Shown: piece after piece, positions 32,398 to 59,454 of the stretch | How the letters are laid out: each line of letters opens with the position of its first letter | Position numbering within the stretch: position 1 is the stretch's first letter | From: Acidimicrobiaceae bacterium | GTDB taxonomy: Bacteria > Actinomycetota > Acidimicrobiia > Acidimicrobiales > RAAP-2 | Assembly: GCA_003158855.1 (NCBI GenBank) | Contig: PMLJ01000039.1 | Coordinates: 9,198 to 73,197 of the forward strand | Reading direction: 5' to 3' | Length of the DNA stretch: 64,000 nucleotides | Position numbers and translations under genes: made by a program | Notes under the pieces: model-generated | Seen by the model: the letters and a program-made list of their open reading frames with translations, nothing else | The model's database searches: none | What the model was told of the DNA's origin: nothing

Positions 32398-32899
32398 ATG
32401 TTGAGGATCTTCCGTACTGGCGCTAGTTCAAGGACCAGCGGATTAATCGAAGGACTTGAATTGATCCTCGCAATCGCGGAGTAGGCTCAGTGCGGCAAAT
32501 GGCACCGAGCAATCCGGAACTGCTGCATCAGTTCGAGAGTTAGGCCGAGGGGTGGCGTAAGTCACCCCTCGGCCGCTTTGCCTGGGGTCGCATCGGACTA
32601 GTTCTGTGTGTCAGTTGAATATTCAAGTTCCATTTCTGTCTCCACGCCACAAGATCTTCCTCGGACTGACTGGACATTCAGACAGGGTGCACAGGTTGTG
32701 TGGGTTCCTAGAGGATGCGCGCACTGATGCGCCCAACTCAGCGCTCCAATAGTCGCAGCCAGCGCAAGACCGCTCTCCTGTCGCGTCAAGGGACGTCAAC
32801 AATCTCCGACTGGAGAATCGCGTCGTGGACCACTGGCGACACGCCATCAGATTGACAGTAGATTCGTTCAGGCGAAGGCACGAATCCAAAGGAGTGGCG
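32398..32899. other. Intergenic region with one terminator
   Basis: About 500 bases hold a clear hairpin at 32543-32574 and otherwise no supported gene. Short minus-strand frames with several Cys residues occur at 32598-32889 but lack a ribosome-binding site. The Fic gene promoter is expected in its right part. Confidence 0.5.
32543..32574 (+). terminator. Strong hairpin terminator
   Basis: GGCCGAGGGGTG and CACCCCTCGGCC pair perfectly over 12 bases around the 8-base loop GCGTAAGT, followed by GCTTTG. It closes the run of small genes ending at 32397. Confidence 0.75.
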
Positions 32900-34402: not shown

Positions 34403-34948
34403 CTAAGTGCTGAATTTAAAAGGTTCGGGTCCAGGAGGTGGTGTGACGGTTCCGCCGAAAGTCGCAGTGGCACGCATGTCTACTGAAGCGACTCCCTTTA
34501 TCGGCGCTTTGTTGACGATTACAGGTCTGGGTCCAGCGCGTTCGGAGTACTCGGCAATTAGGACTAGAAGTTCCGCAATCTGATCGAGACGCTGTTCTGA
34601 AGCCCAGGATTCAACTGGATCCGGATTAGCCATCGATCGGTTCTTCATGTCGTTGAGCACGTCCACCGAGTATCTCTCAACTTGGAGTGCGTCGATCTCG
34701 GTGTGGTGATTTGGACAAATGAGGATCAAATTGTCAAACGAATCACCTTCGTCTGGAGTCATGGTGGAGTCGTAGCGAGGCCCCCCTGGGCTCTTGCTGC
34801 GGATGTGGGCGATTTCCGCCCGCACCGACTTCCATTCTGGCTTCGCAATGACTTTCTCACAGCGGAGGGAGGTGTCTAGATCAATGAAGGCACAAAGATT
34901 ACGAGACAAGGCATAGAGCTGCTTCGTGACCCCGGAACTAATTGACAT
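34403..34948 (-). CDS. HNH endonuclease-like protein
   Basis: The 181-residue protein shows an HNH nuclease core: CAFIDL-and-RCEKVI Cys residues, AEIAHIRSKSPGGPRYD with the first His, then DSFDNLILICPNHHTEID containing the Asn and final His pair. Such domains cleave DNA with a single metal ion. The C-terminal third is a low-complexity tail ending GTVTPPPGPEPF. The ATG at 34948 is chosen because homologous cores begin nearby; the longer frame is less likely. It lies tail-to-tail with the Fic gene. Confidence 0.78.
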   Translation of the reverse strand: MSISSGVTKQLYALSRNLCAFIDLDTSLRCEKVIAKPEWKSVRAEIAHIRSKSPGGPRYDSTMTPDEGDSFDNLILICPNHHTEIDALQVERYSVDVLNDMKNRSMANPDPVESWASEQRLDQIAELLVLIAEYSERAGPRPVIVNKAPIKGVASVDMRATATFGGTVTPPPGPEPFKFST

Positions 34949-35463
34949 GGGTATATCTTTAGCAAGAGATGGACGGCTGGGTGGGTTCAGTTCTGTGGCT
35001 CGACTCAATAGCGCACCGTATGGGACTGTCGAATGACCTTGGCTCGATGGGGGCGTCGAACGCATGCGCGGGAGCGCAGCGCCGACGGCCCCGCAGGCCG
35101 GGTCAGCGGCTGACCAAGCACCTCGGAGCCCTCCGAGGTGGTCGCACTCCGCCAGATGCTGATGTCTCCATCATCCTCCATTCCAACCAGTGACCTTGAC
35201 CAACTGGGCTTCAGTCCCTTCGCAAGCGCATCTTGGAGCCGGGCTTATCTCCCCGCAATCACACGAAGGTTCTGTGGTAATGGCCCGATGTGAACCTTCA
35301 CGCCCTGGCCTCTGACCGGCGGGGCGTCAGGGAACTTCTGGAGCCAGCACTCACTATCGTGCGGAGCCTCTCCAATATGCCTCAGTGATTTACTGATCGT
35401 CAGGAACTGCGAACACGCCGTTGACGTCATGAGGGGCCAGATAAAATTCTGGTTCCTCCGGCT
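34949..35463. other. Intergenic region with tandem hairpins and a gene remnant
   Basis: About 515 bases contain two exact hairpins, GGTCAG-cgg-CTGACC at 35101-35115 and CACCTCGGAG-cc-CTCCGAGGTG at 35119-35140, in a block of higher G+C than its surroundings. At 35390-35467 a short minus-strand frame starts with GTG overlapping the hsdR stop and reads VKPEEPEFYLAPHDVNG. A second frame at 35245-35430 could be its frameshifted continuation (GVKVHIGPLPQNLRVIAGR). This may be a decayed small gene of the restriction operon. Confidence 0.4.
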
Positions 35464-38400: not shown

Positions 38401-38479
38401 GCTCTGAGGCGAGGTAGCGTCCGCTGCTCAGCAGGGAATTCTCGATGGCGTCTTCGAATGCTCGCTCAGCGGTTCCCAT
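35464..38479 (-). pseudogene. hsdR: Type I restriction enzyme R subunit, frameshifted
   Basis: Together the two overlapping frames make one HsdR of about 1000 residues. The N-terminal part (38479 to about 37190) has the nuclease region with TATAELKNPLTGQSVEDA and the Walker A motif QHSAGSGKSNTIAW, then VVVDEAHSSQTG. The C-terminal part (about 37190-35464) continues with FFAFTATPKAKTLELFG, VAEKFQTGFDQP and LSRLNRT. One extra base in AAGGAAAC near 37192 shifts the frame inside the helicase just after the DEAH box. If the base is real, restriction is lost; otherwise it is a sequencing error. hsdS overlaps its start by 14 bases. Confidence 0.85.
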
Positions 38480-39602
38480 TGACAACCTCCGGCATGTCGA
38501 GTTGGCCGGTAACGGCCGCTGTGATAAGGGCTTGGCGTCGTTCACGAAGTTGTGCGAGTTGTTCATCGAGCTTCCGAAGCAATTCGTCCATCGCCGCTTC
38601 GCTTCGATCCAATCTGCCGGCTATTTCTTGTTGTTCAGTTAGGGAAGGAACGCCAACTCGTAGTTGACCGACAACATTTCGGTTGATTCCTGTAACTGCG
38701 GACTTTTCCTCATCGAAGTTCAGCGGCAGCGCACGAAGCAGGTGATACACCCACCGAGGACTATTTCCTCGGAAGTCCTTCACATAGAGCGTCGTGTTCA
38801 GAGGCCAATAGGGAGTTTCTAGCCAGAAAACCTCACCGATTGTTCCATATCGACCTGTCACGACTCCGGGTGGGGCACATACTGCAACGTTGTGCCTGCC
38901 CGACACGCCCCCAGATGAGACCACGGGTACTTCACCTTCAAATCGCTCTTGCGAAGGGAGGTCATGGCCGCGTTGCAGCGCAATCAGAATGCCCAAGTTG
39001 GCCAATCTCCAATTTGGAGGCAGCGTGCCCTCCCCGGTGATGGGGTCTACGCCTTGGAGAATTAGTCGGCATTGTTGCGCAGATGCGCGGACTTGAAGCG
39101 TAGTTAGCATCCGCTGCTTCTTCTCGATTAGCGCGTCGATTCTCGCCGTTTCCCTGTCGAGGTAGTTGGCTACGGCTGTTTGTTGCTCCAAAGTTGGAAT
39201 ATCTATTTGTACTCCACCGACCACATCTTTCGTCACTGCGTCGTACGTTGAGCCAATAGCCAACGACGAAAGGACCTCCACTTTTGCGTGGAGCAGCCAC
39301 CAAAGGAATCGTTGTTCAAGATCCATCGCCCTAACCGCGCAAAGTCCGCGCCCGATGCCATAGGGTCGATCTGCGACATTTAGTGCACCGACCGGTGCAC
39401 GAACTGAGAGAAGAATGTCGCCCGATTCGCACCTCTTAGGTGCGCTATCACAGCGCTTCATAGGAATCGGATACCTGTCCCCGAATTCGGCATTACCTTG
39501 AAGAAATGGTAAGCCGAATTGTTCGTATGACGATACGGCCTCCGACGGAGGCGATTGTCCGGCAATGATATTCACGACGCGCTTCAGCGCCATCACAGTC
39601 AC
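38466..39602 (-). CDS. hsdS: Type I restriction-modification specificity subunit
   Basis: The 378-residue protein has the two-TRD layout of HsdS, which chooses the DNA target for both methylation and cleavage. Each target-recognition domain is followed by a conserved helical spacer: LEQQTAVANYLDRETARID at about residue 137 and LTEQQEIAGRLDRSEAAMD at about residue 320. The ATG overlaps the hsdM stop (ATGA). The target sequence cannot be predicted. Confidence 0.92.
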   Translation of the reverse strand: MTVMALKRVVNIIAGQSPPSEAVSSYEQFGLPFLQGNAEFGDRYPIPMKRCDSAPKRCESGDILLSVRAPVGALNVADRPYGIGRGLCAVRAMDLEQRFLWWLLHAKVEVLSSLAIGSTYDAVTKDVVGGVQIDIPTLEQQTAVANYLDRETARIDALIEKKQRMLTTLQVRASAQQCRLILQGVDPITGEGTLPPNWRLANLGILIALQRGHDLPSQERFEGEVPVVSSGGVSGRHNVAVCAPPGVVTGRYGTIGEVFWLETPYWPLNTTLYVKDFRGNSPRWVYHLLRALPLNFDEEKSAVTGINRNVVGQLRVGVPSLTEQQEIAGRLDRSEAAMDELLRKLDEQLAQLRERRQALITAAVTGQLDMPEVVNGNR

Positions 39603-44866: not shown

Positions 44867-45265
44867 CTACGCGGACATTAAGTACCTGAAACTCTGAGGT
44901 GCGCGGGTACCCGGATCGAACTCTTCAAGCGATTGCGGTTCGTCATATGTGACTACCGCTTCGATGAGAATTCCAACGGCATCTATCGTTCCATCAAAGT
45001 ATTCGAAGAATGACCGCTTATCAATGCCTGCCACGTTGGAGTAACGACGCCATAACTCAGCAGGACTTGCAACGACTTGTCCAGAAACGAGGAACTCTCC
45101 GACGACGGCCTTTACCGGCGCAGTCGTGTAGATAACCACTCGTTCGATGTCACTTGCCAAGCGGCGCTTACGAAACTCGACCTGCTTCGTTCCCTCAAGT
45201 ATCGCTTGAGCGAACTGTGGTCGAATGGACATTAGCGCGGCGCGTTGAGCTGTTGGCGTAGCCAT
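44867..45265 (-). CDS. ASCH domain protein
   Basis: The 132-residue protein is a single ASCH domain, a PUA-like RNA-binding fold: ALMSIRPQFAQAILEGTKQVEFRKR contains the typical SIRP and EFRKR segments. AAGGAG lies seven bases before the ATG at 45265. It overlaps the end of the upstream PIN-GNAT gene by 34 bases, so the two are tightly coupled. Homologous ASCH proteins are found beside GNAT genes. It may bind or act on RNA or a nucleotide; which one cannot be told. Confidence 0.8.
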   Translation of the reverse strand: MATPTAQRAALMSIRPQFAQAILEGTKQVEFRKRRLASDIERVVIYTTAPVKAVVGEFLVSGQVVASPAELWRRYSNVAGIDKRSFFEYFDGTIDAVGILIEAVVTYDEPQSLEEFDPGTRAPQSFRYLMSA

Positions 45266-46713
45266 GTGAGTGCTCCTTCATCATTGACTCGCTGAATAGT
45301 CTGCGGTGGACCTTTCAACAGTCTTGTCTTCTTCAACTGTCTAAGTGGCCATGGTGCCGGCAACACACGATCTTGCCGAAACAGAATCGCAAGAACCGAT
45401 CGATCGTCTTCACACATCAATCGAATCTCGGCATCCGGGTACACGGTGCGTAGTCCCACAAGCCGTCTAATCTCATCGGCGTTCGACGACCTAGTAACAC
45501 TCTCCACCACCCCTATGACTGTTATTGCACTGAGATCAATCGATCGGTAGAAGAGCAGGGTGTCTCCCGGCGCAAGGGTCGTGATGAGCGATCTCGACAA
45601 GTACGCCTTCATGATGGCGTTTCCAGACGCGTTCGGACCAAACAGTTGCCCTTGAATTCGAGCTTCAGGAAAGAGGACATCGTGCCACTGTGGCTGAATC
45701 GGTACGACAAAGGCTCGACGTACTAGAACTGCAGGTGGTCCAAAATCTCGATGGAATTGCAGAGGATCGAGTTGTGAACTCTCAGGCGGCGGTCGGCGGT
45801 TCTTTGCCAGAACGAGCTGGCCATCTTGTGTTCTTCCGTCTAGTTCATGGAAGCCAAAGTCCGAGAATAGACGCACGACACCTACGTGGTGAGGAAATAC
45901 TTCGACGTAGATTTGGTCGATACCGTTCTCTTGCGCGAACTGGAATACTGACTTCAGGATCAATTCACCGCGTTTTGCGCCGCCCGCCTGAGGTGCGACT
46001 TTGAAAGTGCACACCTTCAGAAGTTTCCCAGCAAGATCGTGCTCCCGGCCGCTCTCAATCTTCAAGATAGCGAGCGCTTCAATCTCTCCGTTTGCCCCGA
46101 AGACGACACGACAGGGCCGACTCTTCCGCTGTACCTTCTCTCTGAACCAGGATTCAAAGGGGGCGTAGTCAAGCTTGAGCGAATCAAAGAACGGATCGTC
46201 GACTGATAGTTGATAACCGACTCTCTCCTCAACTGTGGGCAACACCGTCGACTCGCCCAGGAAACGCTCAAGGTATTCAATGCCGCCAAGTATCGATAGC
46301 GCGCGATCACCCAGCCCGGCCCGAACTACATGATTACGCAGTCGCCTGTCTTCGGTGATCAAGAAGTCCGTGGCGTTGTTGTCGAGCGACGCAAGCATCT
46401 GCAGATCAACTTCGTCATTTGGAGAAAGCGGGGTTGCGTAGCCAGCCTCTTTTGCAAGACCAGATCGCGCGTCGAAGGGAGCTAGCAGTCGCCATTGCCG
46501 CATCTTCAGTAACGATGCTTGGCGCATTGGGATGCTTTCTGTGTTGCCAATGTCACTCTTCGTCGCAGGGTGCAAGAACAGCTCGCAGTTGCTTTGGAGC
46601 GCTAATTGTTTCAACCGAGTAGCCAACTCTGCATTGACGTGAAGGCGAGTTGGCGAGATGTCTTCACACGCGTAGAAGACATTCGTGTCGAAGAGCAACT
46701 TCAAGCCTGACAC
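45232..46713 (-). CDS. PIN-GNAT-PUA-like fusion protein
   Basis: The 493-residue protein has three parts. Residues 1-145 look like a PIN nuclease, with acidic residues in LLFDTNVFY (D9), NDEVDLQMLASL (D103), and TDFLITEDRRL (D117, D122). Residues about 195-320 resemble a GNAT acetyltransferase, ending VGVVRLFSDFGF. Residues about 340-470 resemble an EVE/ASCH-like PUA fold with GDTLLFYRS and ITVIGVVESVTRS. The GTG start has GAGGAG ten bases upstream. With the overlapping ASCH gene this forms a compact two-gene unit, probably acting on RNA or tRNA. Whether it is toxin, effector or modification enzyme is not known. Confidence 0.75.
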   Translation of the reverse strand: MSGLKLLFDTNVFYACEDISPTRLHVNAELATRLKQLALQSNCELFLHPATKSDIGNTESIPMRQASLLKMRQWRLLAPFDARSGLAKEAGYATPLSPNDEVDLQMLASLDNNATDFLITEDRRLRNHVVRAGLGDRALSILGGIEYLERFLGESTVLPTVEERVGYQLSVDDPFFDSLKLDYAPFESWFREKVQRKSRPCRVVFGANGEIEALAILKIESGREHDLAGKLLKVCTFKVAPQAGGAKRGELILKSVFQFAQENGIDQIYVEVFPHHVGVVRLFSDFGFHELDGRTQDGQLVLAKNRRPPPESSQLDPLQFHRDFGPPAVLVRRAFVVPIQPQWHDVLFPEARIQGQLFGPNASGNAIMKAYLSRSLITTLAPGDTLLFYRSIDLSAITVIGVVESVTRSSNADEIRRLVGLRTVYPDAEIRLMCEDDRSVLAILFRQDRVLPAPWPLRQLKKTRLLKGPPQTIQRVNDEGALTWLRQQLNAPR

Positions 46714-49222: not shown

Positions 49223-50197
49223 ATGAATACGGTCAGAAGGCCGAACTTGAGTGATGCTGAGATGATGAGTGAAACGGACGACGAGGCGCGACAAGGACGT
49301 AGCCGTCAGCTCAACCTGCCAGCGATTACTTGGATCGTTGCTAAAGATCGACGTGCGGGAACACTCGGAGTGGCCGCAAGTATCAGTGGAAAATTCAAAG
49401 GAATCCCGGCTCGGATCACTCGAACGGAAGACGCGTGGACACTGTTGGCTAAGAACGTCGAAGAGACGATCGCGACCGAAGACCTGTTAAAGCTAATTGC
49501 AGACGGAGTTTTCTTCCCTCTCACTGTGGAGGTGCTGCCCGATCTCGCCCCGAGTCTGTTTGACGGAGCGGTCAGAGCAGCGGAGTCTTCTCTCAATCAC
49601 TTGCTCAAAGCACGTTCCCAACTCGATGAAGTCGCCGGAGCCCAAAACGAAGGGGGATGGTTGGTTACGTTCGTCCTCGCGTCTCACGACCTTGACATGA
49701 CCCTGCAAACCGCAGTCTCGTCAGTGATGTTGGCTGTCGCATCGGTCGAGGCTCAGCTCAACAAGTGGGCCGACTCTCATGGCGGCTGGAACGCGGAAGA
49801 GGATCGACTTCCCATCGGCGAGAAACTCAAGGCTCTTGCGACGAGAGCCGGAACAGTCATTGACCTGGGGTCGGCACCGTATCAACGTCTCTGCGAAGCC
49901 GTCCGACGCAGAAACGAGTACGTTCATTCGAGTCCGTTGCCCCGACCGATGTCTCTTACGGGAGGAAAGATTGCCGTGCCGGGCACAACAGTAGCTACGG
50001 AAGCGCGCGAAGCATGTCTGGGCGCTCGACAAGCGCTCATCTCGCTCGCCCAGGCTCTCAATCAGCCACCGCCAAGGTATCTATCGATATGCCCTCCGGC
50101 CAATCCACCTACTGAGGAGGCGTGGTCAGGTGCCGCCGTGCTTAACGGCGTACGCGAAGATCCGGACTTCATCGACCGTCCCGGTCCACCGTCCTGA
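49223..50197 (+). CDS. Second HEPN-motif protein
   Basis: This 324-residue protein has a beta-rich N-terminal 100 residues and a helical second half. RRRNEYVHSSP carries R230-N-E-Y-V-H235, matching the HEPN R-x4-H catalytic motif. The preceding helix (VMLAVASVEAQLNKWA) resembles the first HEPN helix. The C-terminal 50 residues are Pro-rich. The start is uncertain; ATG at 49223 gives the longest form and ATG at 49262 is also possible. It lies downstream of the zinc-ribbon gene but on the opposite strand. RNase activity is inferred from the motif. Confidence 0.6.
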   Translation: MNTVRRPNLSDAEMMSETDDEARQGRSRQLNLPAITWIVAKDRRAGTLGVAASISGKFKGIPARITRTEDAWTLLAKNVEETIATEDLLKLIADGVFFPLTVEVLPDLAPSLFDGAVRAAESSLNHLLKARSQLDEVAGAQNEGGWLVTFVLASHDLDMTLQTAVSSVMLAVASVEAQLNKWADSHGGWNAEEDRLPIGEKLKALATRAGTVIDLGSAPYQRLCEAVRRRNEYVHSSPLPRPMSLTGGKIAVPGTTVATEAREACLGARQALISLAQALNQPPPRYLSICPPANPPTEEAWSGAAVLNGVREDPDFIDRPGPPS

Positions 50198-50258: not shown

Positions 50259-50429
50259 CTACCGTCGCCAGTAATTTCGTCGACGCGAATTGCGGAACCA
50301 CTCGGTCGCCACGACATCAATCGCAAACATCACTGCGGCGAACACGATGTAACCCCAGTCATATGCCCATACTTGCTGCACAAAGTGGTTCAACAGCGCC
50401 TGCGTCGAAGATGCAGTACTAGTACTCAT
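50259..50429 (-). CDS. Small single-pass membrane protein
   Basis: The 56-residue peptide MSTSTASSTQALLNHF... has one hydrophobic helix (YIVFAAVMFAIDVVATEW, about residues 27-44) and a basic C-terminus with five Arg residues. AAGGAGGG lies six bases before the ATG, a very strong site. It is 132 bases downstream of the DUF6527 gene on the same strand and may be the last gene of the ubiquitin-like operon. No family is recognised. Confidence 0.65.
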   Translation of the reverse strand: MSTSTASSTQALLNHFVQQVWAYDWGYIVFAAVMFAIDVVATEWFRNSRRRNYWRR

Positions 50430-50561
50430 TTGATTTCCCTCCTTTCTCATATTCCTCGGGACACCATTCTCTTGGTGACCGCACGAACCTCAATGCGCCA
50501 TGAAACATCCGAGGCGCTTGTTGCCGCATTCGTTGTAAAGCGCTGCCAACAAGAACGGTCG

Positions 50562-51002
50562 TCACTCCGTTTCATCCATACCGTCAATTGACCTCGTGCC
50601 CAACAATCGATGGATCCAAGACTTCGCCCGTTGTTGTGTCCGCTTCGGTGACTTGTAGTCACGATGGGCACCAAGAGCTGTAGCAACCTCCGATGCGAAC
50701 TGGTCCGACTCCCCTCGCCACCTGGTTGCCGCTCTCACCCAACGAACTCGGTCAAGTCTGATCCAATAATGGGACTGACACGGAAGACTCCAATTACCGA
50801 TAGACGGCGTGAGTGACACCGCCTCGCCGTCGAAGAGTAGTTGCCAGTCGGCCGGAGACAATGGAGTTACGACCTTGTTCCCGCAACCACAAGGGCACAG
50901 GTGAACTACCGTAGCGAAGCGCAGGGAGACATAGAGAACCCCCTCCGCCAAGACGGCAGGCACGTACTCGACGAACTCATGCGTGAGTGAGGCGTGTCTC
51001 AC
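50562..51002 (-). CDS. DUF6527 family protein of a ubiquitin-like operon
   Basis: The 146-residue protein carries the DUF6527 pattern: VVHLCPCGCGNKVVTPL at about residues 32-48, then FDGEAVSLTPSIGNW and PCQSHYWIRLD (C75, S77, H78). The Cys/Ser/His cluster could form a catalytic or metal site. Families of this type are found with ThiF-type E1 enzymes and ubiquitin-like proteins. It follows the ThiF gene by 15 bases. The start is GTG. Its exact reaction is not known to me; processing or ligation of the ubiquitin-like protein is inference. Confidence 0.75.
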   Translation of the reverse strand: MRHASLTHEFVEYVPAVLAEGVLYVSLRFATVVHLCPCGCGNKVVTPLSPADWQLLFDGEAVSLTPSIGNWSLPCQSHYWIRLDRVRWVRAATRWRGESDQFASEVATALGAHRDYKSPKRTQQRAKSWIHRLLGTRSIDGMDETE

Positions 51003-51017
51003 AGGGCCCGATTCTCA

Positions 51018-52181
51018 TTAAGATAGGTGATTCCCGTCGATCGTGTACATCATCGACAACTCGCGTTGCTGGTCGTCATAGAAGCCGCACATCTTCTTCC
51101 ACTTCAATACTGCCAACACCGCGTTGAGCGCATTCAGATCCGCGATTTGAATATTCGCGTCGTATTCGTCTTCCGGGTCGGCGCCGAAAGGTATGAGATT
51201 GCGCTCCCAAACATGATCCCGATTACGTGGGGTGCTGGCCGTGACTCGGACGATGCCAGACAGCGATTCGCCCACGCGGCGCACGCCCATACCAACCTCG
51301 ATGAACGACGTGCCGTACTCCTCAAGCTTCTCGATGATCAGCCTCTCATTCGGATCGGAGTCCATCGCCAAGAAGATGAAGCTCATGTCCCGCAGTTCAT
51401 CCACGTTCGTCGAATCAATGTTGACTGGGTGAGCAACGATGCCCCGGTGGAGAGAGCCGTACTTCCATTGGAAGTACTCGACCTTGGTTGGCGAAGCATT
51501 GAGCTCTTCGAGAGTCGCGGCCCCGGGAGCGCGAAAGGCATTGTGCGTGAGGAACTTGTCCGCGTCGAAGAGATGGATTTCCTGGATTGGTGTCTTGGCG
51601 ATTAGGTCAAGAATGTACGACCCTGTTCCGCCCAAGCCGATGATGGCGACCTTCGCCAGTCCCAGTTTGCTCGTAATCGCGCCAATCCCTGCCCGACTCG
51701 ACGCCGCGTCGACATACCGAAATACCGACTCGTCTTCGGTGGTCACGACGGGGGGAAACGTCCTGGCCGTCGCCGTAGGGTCAATGACGTTCGCGCAGTC
51801 GCCAACCATGCGAACGTATGCAGTCATCTTCGCGTAGTAGTCCGGGTATCCCTCCGGTGGCTTGCTCGAGAACCTGCACGCGGCGGTGAGACCCTCAAGG
51901 ACGTCGAAGGGCTGGTCGGAGTTAATGATCTTGCTCAATGGCGTGCCGATGTTGTCGCAGGGCACGCCTCCGATAAACGCAGCCGTGTGGTCGCTCGGCT
52001 TCGTGGCCATGTCTCCACTGGTCGAGAGCTCTGACACGAGGACGCCGAGCTTGACCACCCTGTCGGCATCGACATACGGCACGTGCTTGACCAGGAGATG
52101 TCCAGAGCGAATTTCGATGTCGAATCCCTCATCACGGAGACGCTGGAGATCCGGGCTACGACTTACTAGTGCTGTAGACAT
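51018..52181 (-). CDS. ThiF/E1-like adenylyltransferase of a ubiquitin-like operon
   Basis: The 387-residue protein has an N-terminal domain of about 150 residues (probably DUF6791-like or E2-like; uncertain) and a C-terminal E1/ThiF adenylation domain. The nucleotide-binding loop is AIIGLGGTGSYILD at residues 180-192, with HLFDADKF (D206, D208) and the Arg of LTHNAFRAPG. ThiF/E1 enzymes adenylate the C-terminus of a ubiquitin-like protein. The gene overlaps the multiubiquitin gene by 26 bases, so both are coupled. The C-terminus is DUF-free and short. No zinc CxxC pairs are present, unlike classical MoeB/ThiF. A catalytic Cys for thioester formation cannot be assigned. Confidence 0.85.
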   Translation of the reverse strand: MSTALVSRSPDLQRLRDEGFDIEIRSGHLLVKHVPYVDADRVVKLGVLVSELSTSGDMATKPSDHTAAFIGGVPCDNIGTPLSKIINSDQPFDVLEGLTAACRFSSKPPEGYPDYYAKMTAYVRMVGDCANVIDPTATARTFPPVVTTEDESVFRYVDAASSRAGIGAITSKLGLAKVAIIGLGGTGSYILDLIAKTPIQEIHLFDADKFLTHNAFRAPGAATLEELNASPTKVEYFQWKYGSLHRGIVAHPVNIDSTNVDELRDMSFIFLAMDSDPNERLIIEKLEEYGTSFIEVGMGVRRVGESLSGIVRVTASTPRNRDHVWERNLIPFGADPEDEYDANIQIADLNALNAVLAVLKWKKMCGFYDDQQRELSMMYTIDGNHLS

Positions 52182-52437
52182 TGAACGTCGTACCTGCCTT
52201 TCGAACCAGGACCACCTCGCCTTCAACGAGGGATCCCTCGTGTCGCGGCTCCTTCGCGTCGCGGAAGGTAACCGTGTACGTCGTATCGGGGCCGGGGTCT
52301 ACGGGGTACGCGATCGAGGTGACCTCGGTGTACGAGACCTCCTCGTGGGGCACTACCGCGAGTTGACCGTTGATGACGATGGAGTACTCAGTGTGCTCCT
52401 GTCGCTCCTCGGGGACTTCAGCTGCATTGTCTTCCAT
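52156..52437 (-). CDS. Multiubiquitin-domain (ubiquitin-like) protein
   Basis: The 93-residue protein has one domain matching the multiubiquitin family: YSIVINGQLAVVPHEEVSY, VTSIAYPVDPGPDTTYTVTF, and VEGEVVLVRKAGTTFNVY. The predicted pattern is that of a beta-grasp. The C-terminus ends STSKS, not the Gly-Gly of eukaryotic ubiquitin, so how it is activated is an open point. AAAGGAAG precedes the ATG. It is the first gene of the operon, followed by ThiF and DUF6527. The conjugation target is unknown. Confidence 0.82.
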   Translation of the reverse strand: MEDNAAEVPEERQEHTEYSIVINGQLAVVPHEEVSYTEVTSIAYPVDPGPDTTYTVTFRDAKEPRHEGSLVEGEVVLVRKAGTTFNVYSTSKS

Positions 52438-52491
52438 GGAAACTTCCTTTCAGTCGCGCCTCTTCTTCCAATTGGTCTCCGCTTAGACGCG

Positions 52492-52511
52492 TGTACGCGG
52501 ACATGTGTACA
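52492..52511. promoter_or_regulatory. Putative XRE operator, copy 1
   Basis: TGTACGC-GGACAT-GTGTACA is an inverted repeat (arms match in 6 of 7) 55 bases upstream of the multiubiquitin start. The same pattern recurs at the XRE gene start, so it is probably the binding site of that regulator and controls the ubiquitin-like operon. Confidence 0.65.
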
Positions 52512-52621
52512 GCGTAGCACCCATGACGAGGCGCCGCCGACAACGGCCCCCGGGGCGGCTCGCTCACCTCCCGGGTCCTGATAAAACGCCCGTGAGCCGC
52601 CAGCGCCAACATCCGCACGGG

Positions 52622-52641
52622 TGTACGCTTGTCGGCGAACA
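52622..52641. promoter_or_regulatory. Putative XRE operator, copy 2
   Basis: TGTACGC-TTGTCG-GCGAACA is an inverted repeat (6 of 7) of the same form as copy 1, with consensus TGTACGC-N6-GYGWACA. Its last base is the A of the XRE ATG, so binding here would block the regulator's own transcription. Confidence 0.65.
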
Positions 52642-53015
52642 TGAAACTTCCGAGGAAAACACTGGGTGAGTTGGTTCACGAGGCCCGCGTTGCAAAAGAA
52701 TTGAGTCTTCGCGCCCTTGCAGGCCAGGTTCAATGCGCCCCCTCGTACCTCAACGACATCGAATACAACCGCAGAGTCCCGTCAGAGGAAGTACTTAGAC
52801 GAATTGCCTCCGAGCTGGACTTGGATGTCGATCTCCTCCTAGCAATGGCGGGGAGAGTCGGTGCCGGCGCCGAGGAGTTCATGAAGTCGAATCCGACTGC
52901 CGGCGTGCTTTTTCGTCGAGTATCCGAAGCTGGCCTCAAGGAGAGCGATCTCAAGAAACTTCTGGAGAGTGCCGAGCAGATGGCTCGCAACCAGGCACCA
53001 AAAGAGTCCAAGTAG
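52641..53015 (+). CDS. XRE-family helix-turn-helix regulator
   Basis: This 124-residue protein has an N-terminal XRE helix-turn-helix: TLGELVHEARVAKELSLRAL, then VQCAPSYLNDIEYNRRVPS with the recognition helix, and VLRRIASELDLDVDLLLAM. The C-terminal part is helical. It is followed six bases later by an ImmA/IrrE-type protease gene, a pairing in which the protease cuts the regulator. It is divergent from the ubiquitin-like operon and its start overlaps one of two matching operators, so it likely represses both directions. Confidence 0.9.
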   Translation: MKLPRKTLGELVHEARVAKELSLRALAGQVQCAPSYLNDIEYNRRVPSEEVLRRIASELDLDVDLLLAMAGRVGAGAEEFMKSNPTAGVLFRRVSEAGLKESDLKKLLESAEQMARNQAPKESK

Positions 53016-53021
53016 CTCGCC

Positions 53022-53723
53022 GTGAAGTGGTACCAGGGCAAGGAAGGCGACCAACGAATCTGGTTTGAGCCCGAGGAGATCGAACAGATTGTCGAAGACG
53101 AGTTGAGAAAAGCCAAGCAGTACCCGTCTGCCACTTCGCCAGTCCTCGATATCGAGCGCTTCCTGGAGGGTCATCTCAGGGCGAGCCTGGATCAATTCGC
53201 CGATCTTGAACCTGACGTCCTCGGGCTTACAAGATTCCACAAGGGGCGCCCTCCAGCAGTCTCAATCAACCGAGACTTGACCGAAGCAGCCGACACGGAA
53301 GCGAAGCCGGGCGTTGTTGGGCGTTGGCGCGCGACCCTTGCCCACGAAAGTGCCCACATCTTGCTCCATCGCATGCTCTTCGAGCTCAACGGCAACGGTC
53401 AAAGCAAGACGTCGGCCGGCACCTCCTCGAGCGGTCACGATGCAATCATGCAATGTCTCAAGCGAGATGTTGGGCCAGGCGGTCGGTCCAGTGACTGGCG
53501 TGAAGTGCAGGCGAACCGGGGGATGGCTGCACTCCTTATGCCACAAAGAATCTTCTCGAAGGTTGCCCAAGCAAAGATTGACGAGACGAACCTCACTGAC
53601 CTGACGCCAGGATCGCAGTCTTCAAGGATCTTGGCGCAGCAGTTAGCAGATCATTTCTCCGTTTCCAAGCAAGCGGCGTCGATAAGGCTAGAAACTCTCT
53701 CGCTCATTTCCTCCTCAAACTGA
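53022..53723 (+). CDS. ImmA/IrrE-family metallopeptidase
   Basis: The 233-residue protein has the zincin motif HESAH at residues 108-112 within RATLAHESAHILLH, and a third ligand candidate E161 in WREVQANRGMAALLMP. ImmA/IrrE enzymes cleave XRE repressors in response to DNA damage or phage signals. The start is GTG. The N-terminal part has SPVLDIERFLEGHL, typical of the family. Its target is probably the neighbouring XRE protein, which would release the ubiquitin-like operon; this is inference. Confidence 0.88.
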   Translation: MKWYQGKEGDQRIWFEPEEIEQIVEDELRKAKQYPSATSPVLDIERFLEGHLRASLDQFADLEPDVLGLTRFHKGRPPAVSINRDLTEAADTEAKPGVVGRWRATLAHESAHILLHRMLFELNGNGQSKTSAGTSSSGHDAIMQCLKRDVGPGGRSSDWREVQANRGMAALLMPQRIFSKVAQAKIDETNLTDLTPGSQSSRILAQQLADHFSVSKQAASIRLETLSLISSSN

Positions 53724-53882: not shown

Positions 53883-54500
53883 TCATGTCTCAGTATCACC
53901 AGGGACATCCTCTTCGAGGAGGTCTTCGAGGAGCCGTATTCGGCGACGGCTACGACTGCGCTTACCCGGACGCGTAGCCTGCTCAACCAAGCCCACGGCT
54001 AGATCACGTCGAGTTTGTGGAAGTTCAGTCTCCAAGACTCGCTCAAGAAGCAGCTCCGCCCGGAGATGACCAGACCTGAGCAGTGACTTGATCCAGTCGA
54101 CGTCCTTCTGTCTCCCCGCCGCCAACTTCGCGACCGCTAGATCATGAATCTCGGGACACAGCCCTGTGGTCCTCCGAGCCGCCCGGCCGTCGATTTCAAT
54201 GGCGCGTTCCTGCCATCCGGGAGGAAAGATGAACAGCTCTCGCGATACGCCTTCGGCGAAAAACCCGTGTGTGGTGTGAAAGAGCGTGTCTTCGCCGATG
54301 TTCCCGTTGATGATCGTCGCCTTCTCGTCAATTGGGTCGGCGAGCGCCGCGACGTCGGCCTCGCGCGACAAGATCGCCGATTTCGGAAGATCATCAGGAA
54401 ACTGTGCCAAAGCCGCCTGCGATCCACCAACGATGACGACGTCCTCCCCCAACAGATCGCAAGTGGCCCGAACGATGTGTTCAAGTTCCATCCGGTTCAC
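53883..54500 (-). CDS. DUF6036-like nucleotidyltransferase (toxin candidate)
   Basis: The 205-residue protein resembles DUF6036/AbiEii-like nucleotidyltransferases: DVVIVGGSQAALAQFPDD holds the GS motif and LSREADVAAL an acidic residue of the metal site. FHTTHGFFAEGVS and EIHDLAVAKLAAGRQKDVDW follow as in the family. The GTG start overlaps the stop of the upstream HTH gene (GTGA). The HTH-plus-nucleotidyltransferase pair looks like a type IV or related toxin-antitoxin or abortive-infection unit. Enzyme target unknown. Confidence 0.75.
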   Translation of the reverse strand: MNRMELEHIVRATCDLLGEDVVIVGGSQAALAQFPDDLPKSAILSREADVAALADPIDEKATIINGNIGEDTLFHTTHGFFAEGVSRELFIFPPGWQERAIEIDGRAARRTTGLCPEIHDLAVAKLAAGRQKDVDWIKSLLRSGHLRAELLLERVLETELPQTRRDLAVGLVEQATRPGKRSRSRRRIRLLEDLLEEDVPGDTET

Positions 54501-55114
54501 GCTGTCACCATCTCGGCGTCGCCAAGGCGAACAGACGCGCTCGCGATTTTGGCGAGCAACTCTCGCCGGACCTGTTCAATGGGCCTCCCGGACTTCGCCG
54601 CGACCCGGGAGCCGTCGGTGCTCATCAGAACATCGAGACGCTCGGCGTCAGAAAGGATCCCACTGAAGGGGCTCGCTTGGCGAATCTCCTTTGCCGCCGC
54701 ATCAGTCGATACCATTGCTCGAATGAGGCCGTGCGTGGGCCCATCGAGAAGGGCCTGCCACGCGTCCAAGTAGAGACTCGATCGGCCTTCGTGGTCGTTG
54801 CCCCGCATCAGGGCCAAGTTCCGCCGCGCACTCGCGATCACGTCGGTGGGGTTGGCCGCGAGCTTGGCCGCAATGGCTCGGTGCAGCTCCAGGGTGCGGA
54901 TCTCAGGTTCGCTCAGGCGAGGACGAACCTCGATGATTAGATCGCACTCCGCAGCCTCGGCGAGTCGCTCGAGTGTCGCGAGACCCGGGTCCTGGCGCCC
55001 CTTGGCGTAGGCGACCAGTGAGGCGTTCGACATCTGGGCACGCCGGGCCAGTTCACGTTGAGTGAAGCCGCTGGCGCGACGTAGGCGGTTCAGAATTGTG
55101 CTCGCTGTGCTCAT
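54497..55114 (-). CDS. HTH antitoxin-like protein
   Basis: The 205-residue protein begins with an XRE-type HTH (LRRASGFTQRELARRAQMSN) and continues with a helical region and ALLDGPTHGLIRAMVSTDA. Such proteins sit upstream of DUF6036 nucleotidyltransferases. The ATG at 55114 is inside a perfect palindrome that should be its own operator, fitting antitoxin autoregulation. Longer in-frame forms upstream would read through that operator and are rejected. Confidence 0.78.
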   Translation of the reverse strand: MSTASTILNRLRRASGFTQRELARRAQMSNASLVAYAKGRQDPGLATLERLAEAAECDLIIEVRPRLSEPEIRTLELHRAIAAKLAANPTDVIASARRNLALMRGNDHEGRSSLYLDAWQALLDGPTHGLIRAMVSTDAAAKEIRQASPFSGILSDAERLDVLMSTDGSRVAAKSGRPIEQVRRELLAKIASASVRLGDAEMVTA

Positions 55115-55139
55115 AGTGGTATTGTATTCCATACCACTA
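55114..55139. promoter_or_regulatory. Palindromic operator at the HTH/nucleotidyltransferase pair
   Basis: TAGTGGTAT at 55114-55122 and ATACCACTA at 55131-55139 are exact reverse complements with an 8-base spacer. The repeat begins at the first base of the HTH start codon on the minus strand. Confidence 0.8.
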
Positions 55140-55424
55140 ATGGTGTCAAGGCCGGGGCCGTCATCTTCACCACCCAGCTGACACCGGCACTGGACTGAGC
55201 GATCACGAGGGACACGGGGTCCAACGGGTGGAGCTGGCCAAAGACCCACGACGAGCGCGCCCGCATTGCGAGCACGAAGTCCTCCCCGGCCGCGAAGTGG
55301 TTCCACACCGTGCCGGCGCCGACCTGGGGCATCGCCACCGCCCTCGATCCACTGTCGTAGAACTCCTCAGCGGCGTACCTCCTTACGATGATTGAAGGAA
55401 ATTAACGCCATCTAACTAATTCAC

Positions 55425-55467: not shown

Positions 55468-58400
55468 ATGGCAGCAAAATACAGGATCCTCGAGGCGTCA
55501 CTTTCTTTGGGCCAAAGCACCGTACGAGACATCGCAACCACTCTCTCCATGCCCGAAGCGACGGTGCGATCCACGCTGAACAGTTACAAGCCTTACTTCA
55601 ACATCACGAAGACTGACAAAGGCGTGCGCGGTGGCCAAGTTCAACTCTGGGAGATTCGACCGGAATTTCTGGACGAGGTTAGGAATGAGATTTCAGAAGG
55701 CACGTCGTCGACCCGCTCAGGTCCGAAAGTTCGCAATCCATCCTCGACTCCCGAGCTCGTCACCGCTGAAGATCTCAATCACTATGACGCACTGCCATCC
55801 AGCAATCTGATCCTCACGTTGGTTCGACGAATCCTCACGAGCATCGGTGTATTGCATCAACTGTCACTACCCGATGGCGAAGGAATTCGAGTACCGGGTT
55901 ACGACGGCCGCGTCTCGTCATCGGCTCCCGCAATCAATGTCCCTCTGGGCGAGAGCGTTTGGGAGTTTGGGGTCGGTGAGAACCCGCGCGAGAAGGCGAA
56001 TAAGGACTACTGGAAACGGTCGAACGAGCCGGGAGACATCAATCCCGCGACAACCACCTTCGTAATGGTTGTGTCACGACGATTTACAAACAAGCAGAGT
56101 TGGAGAATCGAGCGAAAGGCTGACGGAATCTGGAAGGACGTTCGGGTTCTCGACGCCGATGACCTCGCGATATGGTTCGAAGCTCATCCGAGCATCCACG
56201 TCTGGCTCTCTCAGGAGATGGGCTTGCATCCAACGGATGTCATAACCATTGAATCGTGGTACGACACGTGGTTGCGACAAACCAACCCCTCACTCCCCAC
56301 GACGTTGATCTTGGCCGGTCGAGAATCGGAAGTGAAAACGCTCTGCGATCGCGCTGCAACACCTGGTCAACTGATCGCTGTGTACGGTCGAAGCAGGGAG
56401 GAAGCACTGTCTTTTTCAGCAGCAGCTCTTCGTCAGGTTCGTGACGACGATCTTCTTCGACCGTATTTACCTTTACTTGTCAAAACGGAAAACGAGTGGA
56501 CGCGCCTAACTCAATCCATGACCAACGGGATTCTCGTATCCGATTATCTCAATGCCGATGTCAGCGCAGCGACGGACCGGGGTTTGACCGCCATCATTCC
56601 GCTCGGCCCGGGAGACCATAAGCCAGAGGACGTCATCGAACTCGGTGCAATCAACCGCTTCGACGCCGCGAGCCTTCTTGAAGAATCCGAACTGTCCACT
56701 CGCCCGGATGACCCAAAACTGACCCGGACGGAAATCGACAAAATCGTTGAGGGTGTTGATCGCAGCATCACTGCCTTTCGACGCACCTTTTCCGTCAACC
56801 CGCAGCGCGCGACTCCGTCGTGGGTCACCACTGAACCCGCGATTTTTTCGGCACTCGTTCTTGTTGGGTCCTGGGAAACAAGTTCTCAGCACGATCGCGA
56901 GTTCGTCGAACGCGTCACTGGGCTACCTCACAGCGAAGTGACATCCAAACTAAAGCCACTTTTACTCACCGATGACTCACCATTTATTGCAACAGCGGGC
57001 GGATGGACTCTTACATCACCGGAGGACGCCGCTCTCCTCTTGTTGCCACGCCTTCCTGACGACGCGCTCGAGCGTTGGTCACGCGAGGCCCCATCGGTAC
57101 TTGATCCGCTGTCACCCCAAGAACTGCTTTCAACGAGTTACTCGATTTCGTTGCAGGGTGGTGTATCTCGTGCGGCAATCCTTCTCAGCGAGTCAGACAC
57201 ACCGGAACACCACGTAGCGGCCAAGACGCTCGTTCACAACCTTCTGGCGACGACCGAGATTGAAGCCTGGCTCGAGTTCCCTCATCGAACATTGCCCAAC
57301 CTTGCTGAAGCCGCTCCCGACGAATTCATGGGTGCTCTCGAAGCTTTCATACATGTGGCCGCCGATGACCTCAATACAAGAATTGCCAAGACGGAGAAAA
57401 CGATTTACGGCGGGCCGTGGTCACCTTTCCTCGGACTCGTGTGGTCATTGGAACTCCTCTGCCAGTCACCCGACCATTGCGCGAGCGCGTGCTATCGCTT
57501 GGCGCAACTCGCGAGCCTTGATCGCGACTGGAAACCTGGGAATCACCCGTTCGACAGTCTTCGGCGCGCGCTGGTTCCTTGGTTCCCGCAGGTTGCACTG
57601 GACCTCAAGGGAAGAAGAGAAATTCTTGAAGGACTGGTTCGTGAGTATCCAGATGTTGCGTGGCGCTTGCTGGTCTCCCTCTTGCCCGGAATCAGCGATT
57701 CCTCGCATCCGCTGTACGCGCCAACCCTTCGCAACTGGCACACCAAACGTCACGTCTCTGTTCATGAAAGCTACGAAGGCTGGCGAGACGTCGCGACAGT
57801 TGCGACGCAGATGGCCCTCGGTGATCCGGCCCGGCTCATCCGACTGCTGGAGTCCACTCGATACATGGACGTAGACACACGAACGGATATCTTCAATGCA
57901 ATTTCATCATTGAAAACCGATGACTTCCCCGAATCGCGAACCGAGGCGTGGAACTCCCTACGAGAAATGACGGCAAAGCATCGCCAGTTCCCTAACGCAA
58001 AGTGGTCACTCGATGACGCCGAATTAATTCAACTTGAAGCAATAGTCGAATCGTGGTCACCCGACGACGTCGTAGAGAGGCGAGCGCATCTTTTCTCAGG
58101 ACACCCGCGTTTTCCTTCTTCCATGATCGGAACAGAGGAGTACGAAAAGCTCGTCACAGCAGCGCGAAACGACGCGTTCAGAGAGATCATGGCCGACGAT
58201 ACTGATGCTCGTCTCGAACGGCTGATACAACAGGCACCCGACGCGTACACCGTCGGCATCGCAATTGCCGACAACCCCGCGTACGTAGACGAATCGATCG
58301 TGCTTTCGTGGTTTGAACTTGACGGAGCCAAGACCATTGCCGCCAGTTCATGGCTCTTTCGAGCGTTTAACGTTAACGATCTCGCATGGCAACAAAATAT

Positions 58401-59454
58401 CCTCGTTAGCGTAAAGTCGCTTTCGGAACGAGCGCAGATCAATGCACTCACGAGTCTTGCGCATCAAGAGAACATCTTCGATGTACTGAGTGACACCACT
58501 GAAGAGGTACGAAGTGGGTTTTGGGATTCCGTCACCGCGTTCCACCTAAGTCGGGACGCGAACGTCGAAGTCGTTGTTACAAATTTTCTACACCATCACC
58601 GGCCCACCGAAGCGATCAGTTTTCTGTCTTCTCGTCGAAATCAAGAAGTAACGCCCGAGCAAATACAGCGCGTTCTGGCCGCTCTCGAAGACTCTAATGA
58701 CACATCAGAGTTGATGTCCACAATGCTCGCGTTCGAGGTGGGGAATCTCCTCGATCTCCTCGTGAAGGAAGACGCCGACGAGTCGGTCATTGCCCATTTC
58801 GAATTTGTGTTTGCTCCGTTACTTCAGCACGATCGAACGCCAAAAGCACTCTTCCATCAATTGTCCCAAGGTTCCTCTCTTTTTGTCGATTTCGTGACGA
58901 ACGCGTACGGCGATGATCACACCACCCCTGAAGATCGCGACGAACTCTCACAAGAAGCGATGACTCTCGCACGTCTTAGTTATGACGTGCTGCGTGAGTG
59001 GCGCACGCTCCCTGGAAATAAACCAGACGGAACAGTCGACCACTCGATCTTGGACACGTGGGTGACAGAAGCACGGGAAAGTCTCGCCAAAGTCGAACGA
59101 GTCCGTGGAGGAGACCACTGCATTGGTCAGCTTCTCTCTGGAGCACCCGTCGGTAGCGACGGAATATGGCCCACGGAGGCGGTACGTGACGTGATCGAGT
59201 CAATTGAGAGCGATGCACTTCGCGAGGGTTTCGAAATCGGTAAACTAAATGCTCGTGGTGTCACCACCCGTGGCGCGCTCGACGGAGGAGTACAAGAAGT
59301 TGTCCTCGCAGACCGCTACGAGAACGACGCTCGACAGGTCGCAACACGATGGCCGTCCGTCGCTCGCGTTCTTCGTAATCTCGCGGCTCATTACCGTGAA
59401 TCTGCTCGTTACGAAGACCTCCATATGCAGCGAATGCGCGACATGCGAGCCTAA
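55468..59454 (+). CDS. Large wHTH/nuclease-like/helical protein, putative defence effector
   Basis: This 1328-residue protein has a winged-HTH at residues 1-75 (STVRDIATTLSMPEATVRST). A region at about 110-250 shows VPGYDGRV, INVPLGESVWEFGVG and EKANKDYWKRS, which suggests a PD-(D/E)XK-type nuclease with Asp, Glu and Lys in order. A following segment (residues about 280-480) has LIAVYGRSREEALSF where a STAND-type Walker A would be, but the Lys is missing. The rest is long and helical and may form repeats. It lies in the defence island under its own palindromic promoter. Function is unknown; the domain calls are by eye. Confidence 0.65.
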   Translation: MAAKYRILEASLSLGQSTVRDIATTLSMPEATVRSTLNSYKPYFNITKTDKGVRGGQVQLWEIRPEFLDEVRNEISEGTSSTRSGPKVRNPSSTPELVTAEDLNHYDALPSSNLILTLVRRILTSIGVLHQLSLPDGEGIRVPGYDGRVSSSAPAINVPLGESVWEFGVGENPREKANKDYWKRSNEPGDINPATTTFVMVVSRRFTNKQSWRIERKADGIWKDVRVLDADDLAIWFEAHPSIHVWLSQEMGLHPTDVITIESWYDTWLRQTNPSLPTTLILAGRESEVKTLCDRAATPGQLIAVYGRSREEALSFSAAALRQVRDDDLLRPYLPLLVKTENEWTRLTQSMTNGILVSDYLNADVSAATDRGLTAIIPLGPGDHKPEDVIELGAINRFDAASLLEESELSTRPDDPKLTRTEIDKIVEGVDRSITAFRRTFSVNPQRATPSWVTTEPAIFSALVLVGSWETSSQHDREFVERVTGLPHSEVTSKLKPLLLTDDSPFIATAGGWTLTSPEDAALLLLPRLPDDALERWSREAPSVLDPLSPQELLSTSYSISLQGGVSRAAILLSESDTPEHHVAAKTLVHNLLATTEIEAWLEFPHRTLPNLAEAAPDEFMGALEAFIHVAADDLNTRIAKTEKTIYGGPWSPFLGLVWSLELLCQSPDHCASACYRLAQLASLDRDWKPGNHPFDSLRRALVPWFPQVALDLKGRREILEGLVREYPDVAWRLLVSLLPGISDSSHPLYAPTLRNWHTKRHVSVHESYEGWRDVATVATQMALGDPARLIRLLESTRYMDVDTRTDIFNAISSLKTDDFPESRTEAWNSLREMTAKHRQFPNAKWSLDDAELIQLEAIVESWSPDDVVERRAHLFSGHPRFPSSMIGTEEYEKLVTAARNDAFREIMADDTDARLERLIQQAPDAYTVGIAIADNPAYVDESIVLSWFELDGAKTIAASSWLFRAFNVNDLAWQQNILVSVKSLSERAQINALTSLAHQENIFDVLSDTTEEVRSGFWDSVTAFHLSRDANVEVVVTNFLHHHRPTEAISFLSSRRNQEVTPEQIQRVLAALEDSNDTSELMSTMLAFEVGNLLDLLVKEDADESVIAHFEFVFAPLLQHDRTPKALFHQLSQGSSLFVDFVTNAYGDDHTTPEDRDELSQEAMTLARLSYDVLREWRTLPGNKPDGTVDHSILDTWVTEARESLAKVERVRGGDHCIGQLLSGAPVGSDGIWPTEAVRDVIESIESDALREGFEIGKLNARGVTTRGALDGGVQEVVLADRYENDARQVATRWPSVARVLRNLAAHYRESARYEDLHMQRMRDMRA

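Follow-up and report, generated by a model that had tools for sequence, protein, structure and literature searches.

A ubiquitin-like/E1 operon with a serine-ending modifier, divergent from an XRE/M78 peptidase pair, in an Acidimicrobiaceae genome

Organization of the locus

The window analyzed here is a stretch of 64,000 nucleotides from an Acidimicrobiaceae bacterium (assembly GCA_003158855.1, 2.72 Mb in 50 contigs; contig PMLJ01000039.1, positions 9,198 to 73,197), and the system in question is a compact operon on its minus strand (50562-52437) that encodes a ubiquitin-like protein (Ubl), an E1-like enzyme, and a DUF6527 protein. The genes of an XRE repressor and an M78 metallopeptidase lie on the plus strand, divergent from the operon. 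A first-pass annotation, made from the sequence alone, had named these five genes, and a Pfam profile check returned the expected family for each; the repressor and the ImmA/IrrE-type protease, matched by HTH_31 and Peptidase_M78, were also identified by PADLOC as capH (E=4.8e-10) and capP (E=4.4e-10, profile positions 65-150 of 242). The features of the locus are as follows.

52156-52437, minus: Ubl, 93 aa, a single Multi_ubiq domain with the C terminus T-S-K-S (Pfam PF14452, E=3.1e-10)
51018-52181, minus: E1-like protein (E1), 387 aa, DUF6791 (about residues 10-158) plus ThiF (Pfam; start taken from the conserved overlap)
52156-52181, minus: 26-nt overlap of the Ubl 3' end and the E1 5' end (from the start codon position in relatives)
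50562-51002, minus: DUF6527 protein, GTG start, 146 aa (Pfam PF20137, E=1.2e-25)
52641-53015, plus: XRE repressor, CapH-like, 124 aa from the ATG at 52641 (Pfam HTH_31, E=3.1e-10, for the open reading frame [ORF] 52629-53015)
53022-53723, plus: M78 metallopeptidase, ImmA/IrrE/CapP-like, 233 aa (Pfam PF06114, E=6.5e-9)
53343-53357 and 53502-53504, plus: HESAH motif and E161 codon of the M78 protein (read from the sequence)
52159-52161, minus: codon of the terminal Ser of the Ubl
51957-51959, minus: codon of Cys75 in the DUF6791 part of E1
52622-52641, plus: operator-like palindrome TGTACGC-N6-GCGAACA, ending on the A of the XRE ATG (0 mismatches to TGTWCGCN6GCGWACA)
52492-52511, no strand: second operator-like palindrome, on the Ubl side (1 mismatch to the same pattern)
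50259-50429, minus: small predicted membrane ORF, 56-aa form from 50429 (ORF 50259-50450)

The operon genes overlap or nearly touch, as had been noted at first pass, with DUF6527 following E1 after 15 nt. The PF14452 match of the Ubl (40.5 bits against a cut-off of 24.5) forms one stretch, and the protein is therefore taken as one domain. The Pfam scan called the E1 ORF as 51018-52226 (DUF6791, E=1.5e-54; ThiF, E=3.5e-9), and NCBIfam assigns it to PRK06153.1-4, "hypothetical protein," with 524.8 bits against a cut-off of 352. None of the three operon proteins matches a PHROGs family. The local lack of E2 and JAB genes and of a Gly-Gly end in the Ubl, both remarked on earlier, held up: no E2 or JAB family of Pfam is matched by the operon proteins, and the Ubl ends in T-S-K-S. 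Prok-E2_A and Prok-E2_B, the only E2 families searched for in the host genome, gave no match there. One Prok-JAB ORF (a 138-aa frame) was found in the host genome on another contig (C46, 2830-3147; L117), with no operon link shown.

Conservation of the gene set and of the upstream M78 gene

A profile built from three E1 proteins yielded 328 tblastn-confirmed stretches in the genome contigs of a collection of 84,980 genomes. The best 80 of these 328 by similarity to the window E1, together with the window itself and loci L013 and L014, formed the survey set (n = 83), which spans 14 named phyla and whose counts describe the nearer part of the E1 family. Left out before counting were L012, whose contig equals that of L089 in length and was taken as identical, and the viral loci L101-L103; IMG/VR contributed 3 loci, excluded from the counts. 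L014, with its E1 in two frames, was excluded from the E1 alignment. XRE and M78 matches in relatives come from custom profiles grown from the window proteins, rather than from Pfam run on each locus.

A Ubl gene is present in 82 of the 83 loci, the exception being L051, which starts inside E1 and has no Ubl region. DUF6527 follows in 80; two of the others (L075 and L080) have less than 120 nt of downstream sequence, and the third (L046) has 5.7 kb without a match. The XRE-ImmA pairing beside the operon, on whose conservation the first-pass annotation had staked its reading, recurs in relatives: an M78 ORF lies at most 4.5 kb upstream in 70/83 loci, against 2 matches in 992 kb elsewhere, and the association persists both among the loci with the full 4.5 kb of sequence (60/70) and among clusters formed at 80% E1 identity (53/65). 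The M78 gene is divergent from the operon in most of these 70 loci, accompanied by XRE in the same stretch (36 loci), fused to XRE (6), or without an XRE match (7); on the same strand there are 4 pairs, 1 fusion, 1 M78 gene alone, and 15 giant proteins. The window genome has three M78 matches in total.

A C-terminal serine selected in the modifier

The terminal residue is Ser in all 82 Ubl proteins, the window included, and none of them has Gly-Gly within its last eight residues. The commonest ends are TDKS (37 proteins), TVQS (14), and TNRS (7); T-x-[KRQ]-S describes 78 of the 82, the other four being NNKS, STRS, TRLS, and THLS. By comparison, ThiS, MoaD, and ubiquitin have a conserved C-terminal glycine.

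The E1 start codon is found at the same overlap position in 81/82 loci, the window included, and in the same frame in 82/82; because the position is conserved, the ATG at 52181, which lies 26 nt inside the Ubl gene, is the most likely start of E1. Since these last nucleotides of Ubl are common to the start of E1, the conservation of the Ser could stem from E1. The codons of the overlap indicate otherwise. The Ubl Ser codon is always TCN (TCG, TCT, TCA, or TCC), and residue 8 of E1 is accordingly Arg, Leu, His, or Pro. The third base of E1 codon 7 is T in 82/82 loci, against a mean of 40% T in comparable E1 codons; a C at this place, commoner in comparable codons, would be synonymous in E1 but would change the Ubl Ser to Pro. 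This pattern in the aligned codons indicates that the terminal Ser itself is under selection in the modifier; since the loci share ancestry, no combined probability is attached to it.

A related C terminus is found in the PDB. The last domain of 9cd2, titled "ZDHYS365 multi-ubiquitin domain protein," matches the Ubl family profile (E=2.1e-22), and the chain ends in TDKS; it has 222 residues, whereas the window Ubl is a single 93-aa domain. Multi_ubiq genes were also found in relatives that carry no DUF6791-ThiF E1 within the fetched flanks (L006-L011). Two of these ORFs end in FG (L006 and L010), two in NS (L007 and L011), and one in Glu (L009), while the sixth (L008) runs off its contig; the variable ends suggest that other kinds of multiubiquitin locus exist in the same bacterial order.

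An E1-like enzyme with a near-invariant cysteine outside its ThiF half

The AlphaFold2 (AF2) model of E1 has a mean predicted local distance difference test score (pLDDT) of 90 and a predicted template modeling score of 0.68, and in this model the ThiF half has an E1 fold. The top sequence-profile match of the ThiF half is BubCD (E=5e-9), which is also first by Foldseek; by structural VIA Z, BubCD (23.2) is tied with ThiF (22.3), and SUMO E1, Atg7, and MccB follow at 21-22. Matches in the structural search of the E1 model are confined to residues 145-387, that is, the ThiF half filled the list, and a PDB sequence search with DUF6791 gave a best match of E=0.099. Candidate "E1-E2" matches from PADLOC (24 families) were rejected, since their best stretch begins no earlier than residue 169, in or close to the ThiF half. 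The model of DUF6791 shows the order helix, four strands, Cys loop, helix, compatible with a ubiquitin-conjugating (UBC) fold.

The sole near-invariant Cys of the E1 protein is Cys75 of DUF6791, kept in 79/82 rows (2 Ser, 1 His); His65 and Ser105 of the same domain are present in 82/82. The ThiF half has no near-invariant Cys, and one Cys position there is filled in 59/82 rows and is Ala in the window.

These observations bear on whether proteins are conjugated at all, or whether the E1-like protein acts on the Ubl C terminus in the way that MccB modifies the MccA peptide, or else activates a carrier. The match of the ThiF half to MccB (profile E of about 8e-5; Z of 21.4 for 3h9g_B), the non-glycine end of the Ubl, and the absence of a near-invariant Cys from the ThiF half are all in keeping with such chemistry. 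Against it stand the near-invariance of Cys75 in the fused domain and the first rank of BubCD by both profile and Foldseek, even though the Z score of BubCD is tied with that of ThiF and only about 2 above that of MccB. We regard chemistry of this kind, ending short of protein conjugation, as unlikely.

The third operon protein, DUF6527, conserves H34, C36, C38, C40, C75, and H78, a Cys/His set that suggests a metal site. Its AF2 model reaches pLDDT values of 93-98 per ten-residue block over residues 1-90. Compared with solved structures, the model gave no Foldseek match below E=0.86 and a best VIA Z of 3.6, a search that carries no claim of a new fold.

The XRE/M78 pair and its operator-like sites

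The XRE/M78 pair shares two traits with CapH+CapP, having a helix-turn-helix (HTH) repressor adjoining an M78-type peptidase in which HExxH takes the form HESAH and is joined by E161. In 45 aligned M78 proteins shorter than 330 aa, Glu109, His112, and Glu161 are conserved in 100% and His108 in 96%. The Pfam Peptidase_M78 match covers profile positions 73-122 of 123 and ends at residue 223 of 233; judged by length, the 10 remaining residues leave no room for a C-terminal GAF-like domain of the PprI type. The available part of PMC10904395 reports that PprI without its GAF-like domain loses single-stranded DNA binding and activation and that CapP superposes on PprI. Sensing of single-stranded DNA by the window M78 protein was accordingly considered and is not supported, the protein being too short for that domain, and its trigger may differ from that of CapP. 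M78 lengths in the relatives range from 168 aa upward.

The pattern TGTWCGCN6GCGWACA occurs, at no more than 1 mismatch, at 3 places in the 2.72-Mb genome, 2 of which are in this divergent region. The reversed control pattern occurs at 2 places in the same genome, and hence it is the position of the sites that counts, not their number. A site pair also lies between XRE and Ubl in L039, from Subtercola, at 4698 (1 mismatch; corresponding to 52622-52641 of the window) and 4779 (0 mismatches; corresponding to 52492-52511), with no further such place in the 16 kb of that locus at the same threshold. The L039 M78 protein is the closest to that of the window, at 44% identity. A shorter word, GTGTAC, had been tried as the operator and was replaced by the longer palindrome, its window matches numbering 24 against 11.4 expected.

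Alternative controllers upstream of the operon

The position upstream of the operon is not always held by separate XRE and M78 genes. Fused XRE-M78 proteins are encoded in 7 loci. In another 15 loci (L055, L056, L059, L067, L072, L079, L080, L082-L084, L086, L087, L095, L097, and L100), the M78 domain belongs to a giant same-strand protein of 1083-1153 aa; for the three of these run against Pfam (L055, L059, and L067), the architecture is M78-UvrD-PD-(D/E)XK. Walker A is present in 15/15 of these proteins and HExxH in 14/15, L082 being cut at the contig end. In 14 of the 15 loci, the giant-protein gene is preceded by a sigma-70-like gene and a gene for a 188-aa-type protein, the exception again being the truncated L082; the sigma-like assignment comes from a relative annotated as a sigma-70-family factor on plasmid pXBB1-8, and the 188-aa-type protein might, as a guess, be the M78 substrate. 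In a quick E1 tree of 82 rows, the 15 loci need one change (support 73). Their operons encode a Ubl of 249-268 aa (by length only), DUF6791-ThiF, and usually DUF6527.

A further solution is seen in L044, where two divergent genes occupy the position. They match HATPase_c at 26.2 bits (cut-off 26.4) and DUF4325/MarR at 20.1 and 22 bits (under the cut-offs), and the counterpart of the second gene in L027 reaches 23.9 for DUF4325 against a cut-off of 23; with this weak assignment, the L044 genes may resemble CapK and CapS. Given several controller types at one position, the site seems to serve as a controller slot that has been filled in several ways.

The pair has been interpreted differently in a 2016 Synechocystis paper (PMC4963859). 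The part of the paper available describes multiubiquitin, E2/E1, and metal-binding genes alongside an XRE-COG2856/DUF955 pair and states that 70% of PF14452 proteins adjoin loci whose toxin carries COG2856/DUF955. These cassettes thus hold the same gene set with XRE/DUF955 but are read there as toxin-antitoxin stabilization; analysis of operators or C termini, as undertaken here, is absent from the description in that part. Applied to the window, the XRE/M78 pair would be a type II toxin-antitoxin or addiction module that stabilizes the cassette without regulating it, a role that would also suit the presence of the operon on 115 of 72,556 plasmid records. Several observations speak against such a role: the HExxH motif and Glu ligand are conserved in M78, the two gene sets diverge from a shared region that holds two operator-like sites, M78 is part of a helicase-nuclease protein in 15 loci, and the slot in L044 holds CapK/CapS-like genes. 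A purely stabilizing module appears very unlikely.

Relation to known systems

The window locus is a further member of the cataloged type 6e multiubiquitin operons ("domain X" variant), under what is probably a PprI/CapP-type switch. In the operon catalog published by Iyer, Burroughs, and Aravind in 2006 (PMC1779556), row 6e lists, in the part available, a PolyUbl-family Ubl, an E1, and a metal-binding protein; in some of the E1 versions a "distinct domain X" replaces JAB, one species is noted to have a solo Ub-like domain, and 6e membership varies in the table of that paper. The window resembles this type in its PF14452 Ubl, its non-JAB N-terminal E1 domain, and its metal-binding-type partner; we infer that DUF6791 corresponds to domain X and DUF6527 to protein Y of that paper. 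The window differs in two respects: type 6e is listed with a separate inactive E2/RWD gene, whereas the operon proteins of the window include no such family, and the XRE/M78 pair is not part of the 6e description, the term "XRE" occurring 0 times in the available text of PMC1779556.

A second comparison is offered by the Bub operons, which have a CapW or CapH+CapP controller in 219/544 cases, with CapK+CapS also described (PMC13373217, 2026, in the part available). They are likewise Ubl/E1 operons under an HTH+peptidase controller, and BubCD is the best match of the window ThiF half. Conversely, the N-terminal parts of the two enzymes differ, that of the window E1 being DUF6791 and only residues 170-424 of BubCD being aligned, and no BubB-like gene was recognized in the window operon, to which BubB itself was not compared. 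By PDB titles, BubCD has been solved with BubB and BubA.

The novelty implied by the first-pass annotation was overstated, as the operon type (PMC1779556), its M78 neighborhood (PMC4963859), and CapH+CapP beside related operons (PMC13373217) are already described in the available parts of these papers. Added here are the selected terminal Ser, the conserved Cys75 of DUF6791, and the paired operator-like palindromes that recur in Subtercola. DUF6791 and DUF6527 are not mentioned in the literature searched, outside which lie the papers defining Bub (Gong 2025 and Ye 2026). Searches on the C-terminal serine, oxyester, M78/CapP with a helicase, and Bil/Bub filaments gave nothing else on this branch among the matches listed; the terminal Ser may already be in print.

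Genomic setting and spread

The operon lies in a stretch of low GC content. Measured in 2-kb bins, the first 30 kb of the window have a GC of 0.62-0.67; between 30 and 60 kb, 13 of 15 bins have 0.53-0.60 and the other two 0.64 and 0.615. Scanned neighbors include a Type I restriction system, a Fic protein, an HNH protein like effectors of the cyclic-oligonucleotide-based antiphage signaling system (CBASS), and a PDC-M11A candidate; with restriction and candidate defense genes around it, the region looks like a defense island.

The operon is sparsely distributed among relatives and carried on plasmids. Of 396 genomes sampled across the phylum, 3 carry DUF6791, counting that of the window, and PF14452 occurs in 7/100 relatives, 6 of them above the cut-off. 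Within 1.5-kb flanks in those relatives, a DUF6791-ThiF E1 stands beside PF14452 only in the window genome and in one other (G403). The G403 genome is of the same genus, and E1 in its operon (L005, 355-1514) is split over two frames, by decay or assembly error. E1 matches 115 of 72,556 plasmid records, 83 of the 115 being typed as mobilizable or conjugative, and had no match among 50,697 phage records. The patchy occurrence and the plasmid carriage form a pattern of horizontal spread.

This setting raises the question of whether the operon is simply cargo of a mobile element. The XRE/M78 pair, which we take in that case to be ImmR/ImmA-type control, would be an ordinary mobile-element control pair, and the operon would answer activation of the element rather than damage or phage. 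The low-GC stretch and the many plasmids carrying the operon fit this possibility, but no transfer or integration family was matched among the scanned window proteins, which covered part of the window, and several scanned neighbors are restriction-modification or PADLOC candidate defense genes. On balance, we give this possibility little credence.

Several neighboring ORFs were recorded in their own right. Two overlapping ORFs (37097-38566 and 35464-37329, minus) beside HsdS and HsdM together cover subunit R of the Type I restriction system, and the split could be a frameshift, a sequencing error, or phase variation. The Fic-family gene (PADLOC SoFic, 32825-34306, plus) adjoins the HNH-like gene (34403-35065, minus), whose product resembles CBASS endonuclease effectors, and the PDC-M11A candidate of PADLOC lies at 45232-46713 (minus; E=1.4e-155). 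Just past the M78 gene, a DUF6036 nucleotidyltransferase and an XRE-containing ORF overlap by 4 nt (53883-55306, minus) and could be a toxin-antitoxin pair. An ORF of 1328 aa (55468-59454, plus) matches no PADLOC, NCBIfam, or Pfam family. On the other side, the small membrane ORF, which the first-pass annotation had placed behind the operon genes, does exist, but it has no Pfam or PHROGs family and no tblastn match at E<=1 among the other 86 loci; without relatives there, it does not look like a conserved part of the system and probably lies outside it. Just past it, a 324-aa ORF (49223-50197, plus) has no family found.

Proposed mechanism and significance

Direct support exists for which genes are present and in what order, for the association with M78, for selection of the terminal Ser, for conservation of Cys75, and for the pairing of the operator-like sites. 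With modest confidence, we favor reading the locus as a ubiquitin-like modification operon that spreads horizontally and is derepressed by proteolysis, and the operon probably tags proteins. In this mechanism, XRE would sit on the two palindromes of the roughly 200-bp shared region and repress both its own gene pair and Ubl-E1-DUF6527. By analogy with PprI and CapP, the M78 protease, activated by a stress signal, would cut XRE. The ThiF domain would then adenylate the C-terminal Ser of the Ubl, and the modifier would pass to Cys75 of DUF6791, which would replace the E1 cysteine and a separate E2; this residue is proposed because the ThiF half has no near-invariant Cys. From Cys75 the modifier would move to a target, and DUF6527 might select targets or assist the transfer.

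Several points weigh against the derepression and tagging mechanism. On the side of control, 13/83 loci gave no M78 match upstream (2 with XRE only, 11 with neither), and 10 of the 13 have the full 4.5 kb of sequence. Because the palindrome pattern was derived from the four sites that it finds, its independent evidence is limited to the recurrence in a second genus. If up to 2 mismatches are allowed, finding two sites in the window is nothing out of the ordinary (31/100 shuffles). A promoter and terminator scan of the region called none. On the side of chemistry, the ThiF-half Cys present in 59/82 rows may have a role in relatives, and a terminal Ser is not universal in the wider PF14452 family, judging from its sequences. 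The E2 identity that the first-pass annotation had raised for the domain N-terminal to ThiF found no support in profile comparison: HHalign gave 0.1% against Prok-E2_A and 0.2% against Prok-E2_B, the only E2 families tried, compared with 89% for the control of E2_A against E2_B, with profiles of only 3 and 4 rows and L108 dropped from E2_B. Finally, PMC13373217 notes that phage protection by Bub operons has yet to be demonstrated.

A more far-reaching version, in which the locus represents a one-enzyme Ubl pathway of distinct chemistry, is tentative and on the doubtful side. Such a pathway would have an obligatory Ser end, passage of the adenylated Ser to the Cys of a DUF6791 domain without sequence relation to E2s, a DUF6527 partner, and interchangeable M78-based stress sensors, among them the M78-UvrD-PD-(D/E)XK protein with a sigma-like factor replacing XRE.

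The operon type has been cataloged since 2006 and is widespread (328 stretches and 115 plasmid records), yet it is poorly understood. The Ser end in 82/82 Ubl proteins departs from the conserved Gly of ThiS, MoaD, and ubiquitin, which makes the chemistry directly testable. That different controllers occupy one position suggests a need to hold the operon silent as long as a signal is absent, and the controllers may thus offer a route to that signal.

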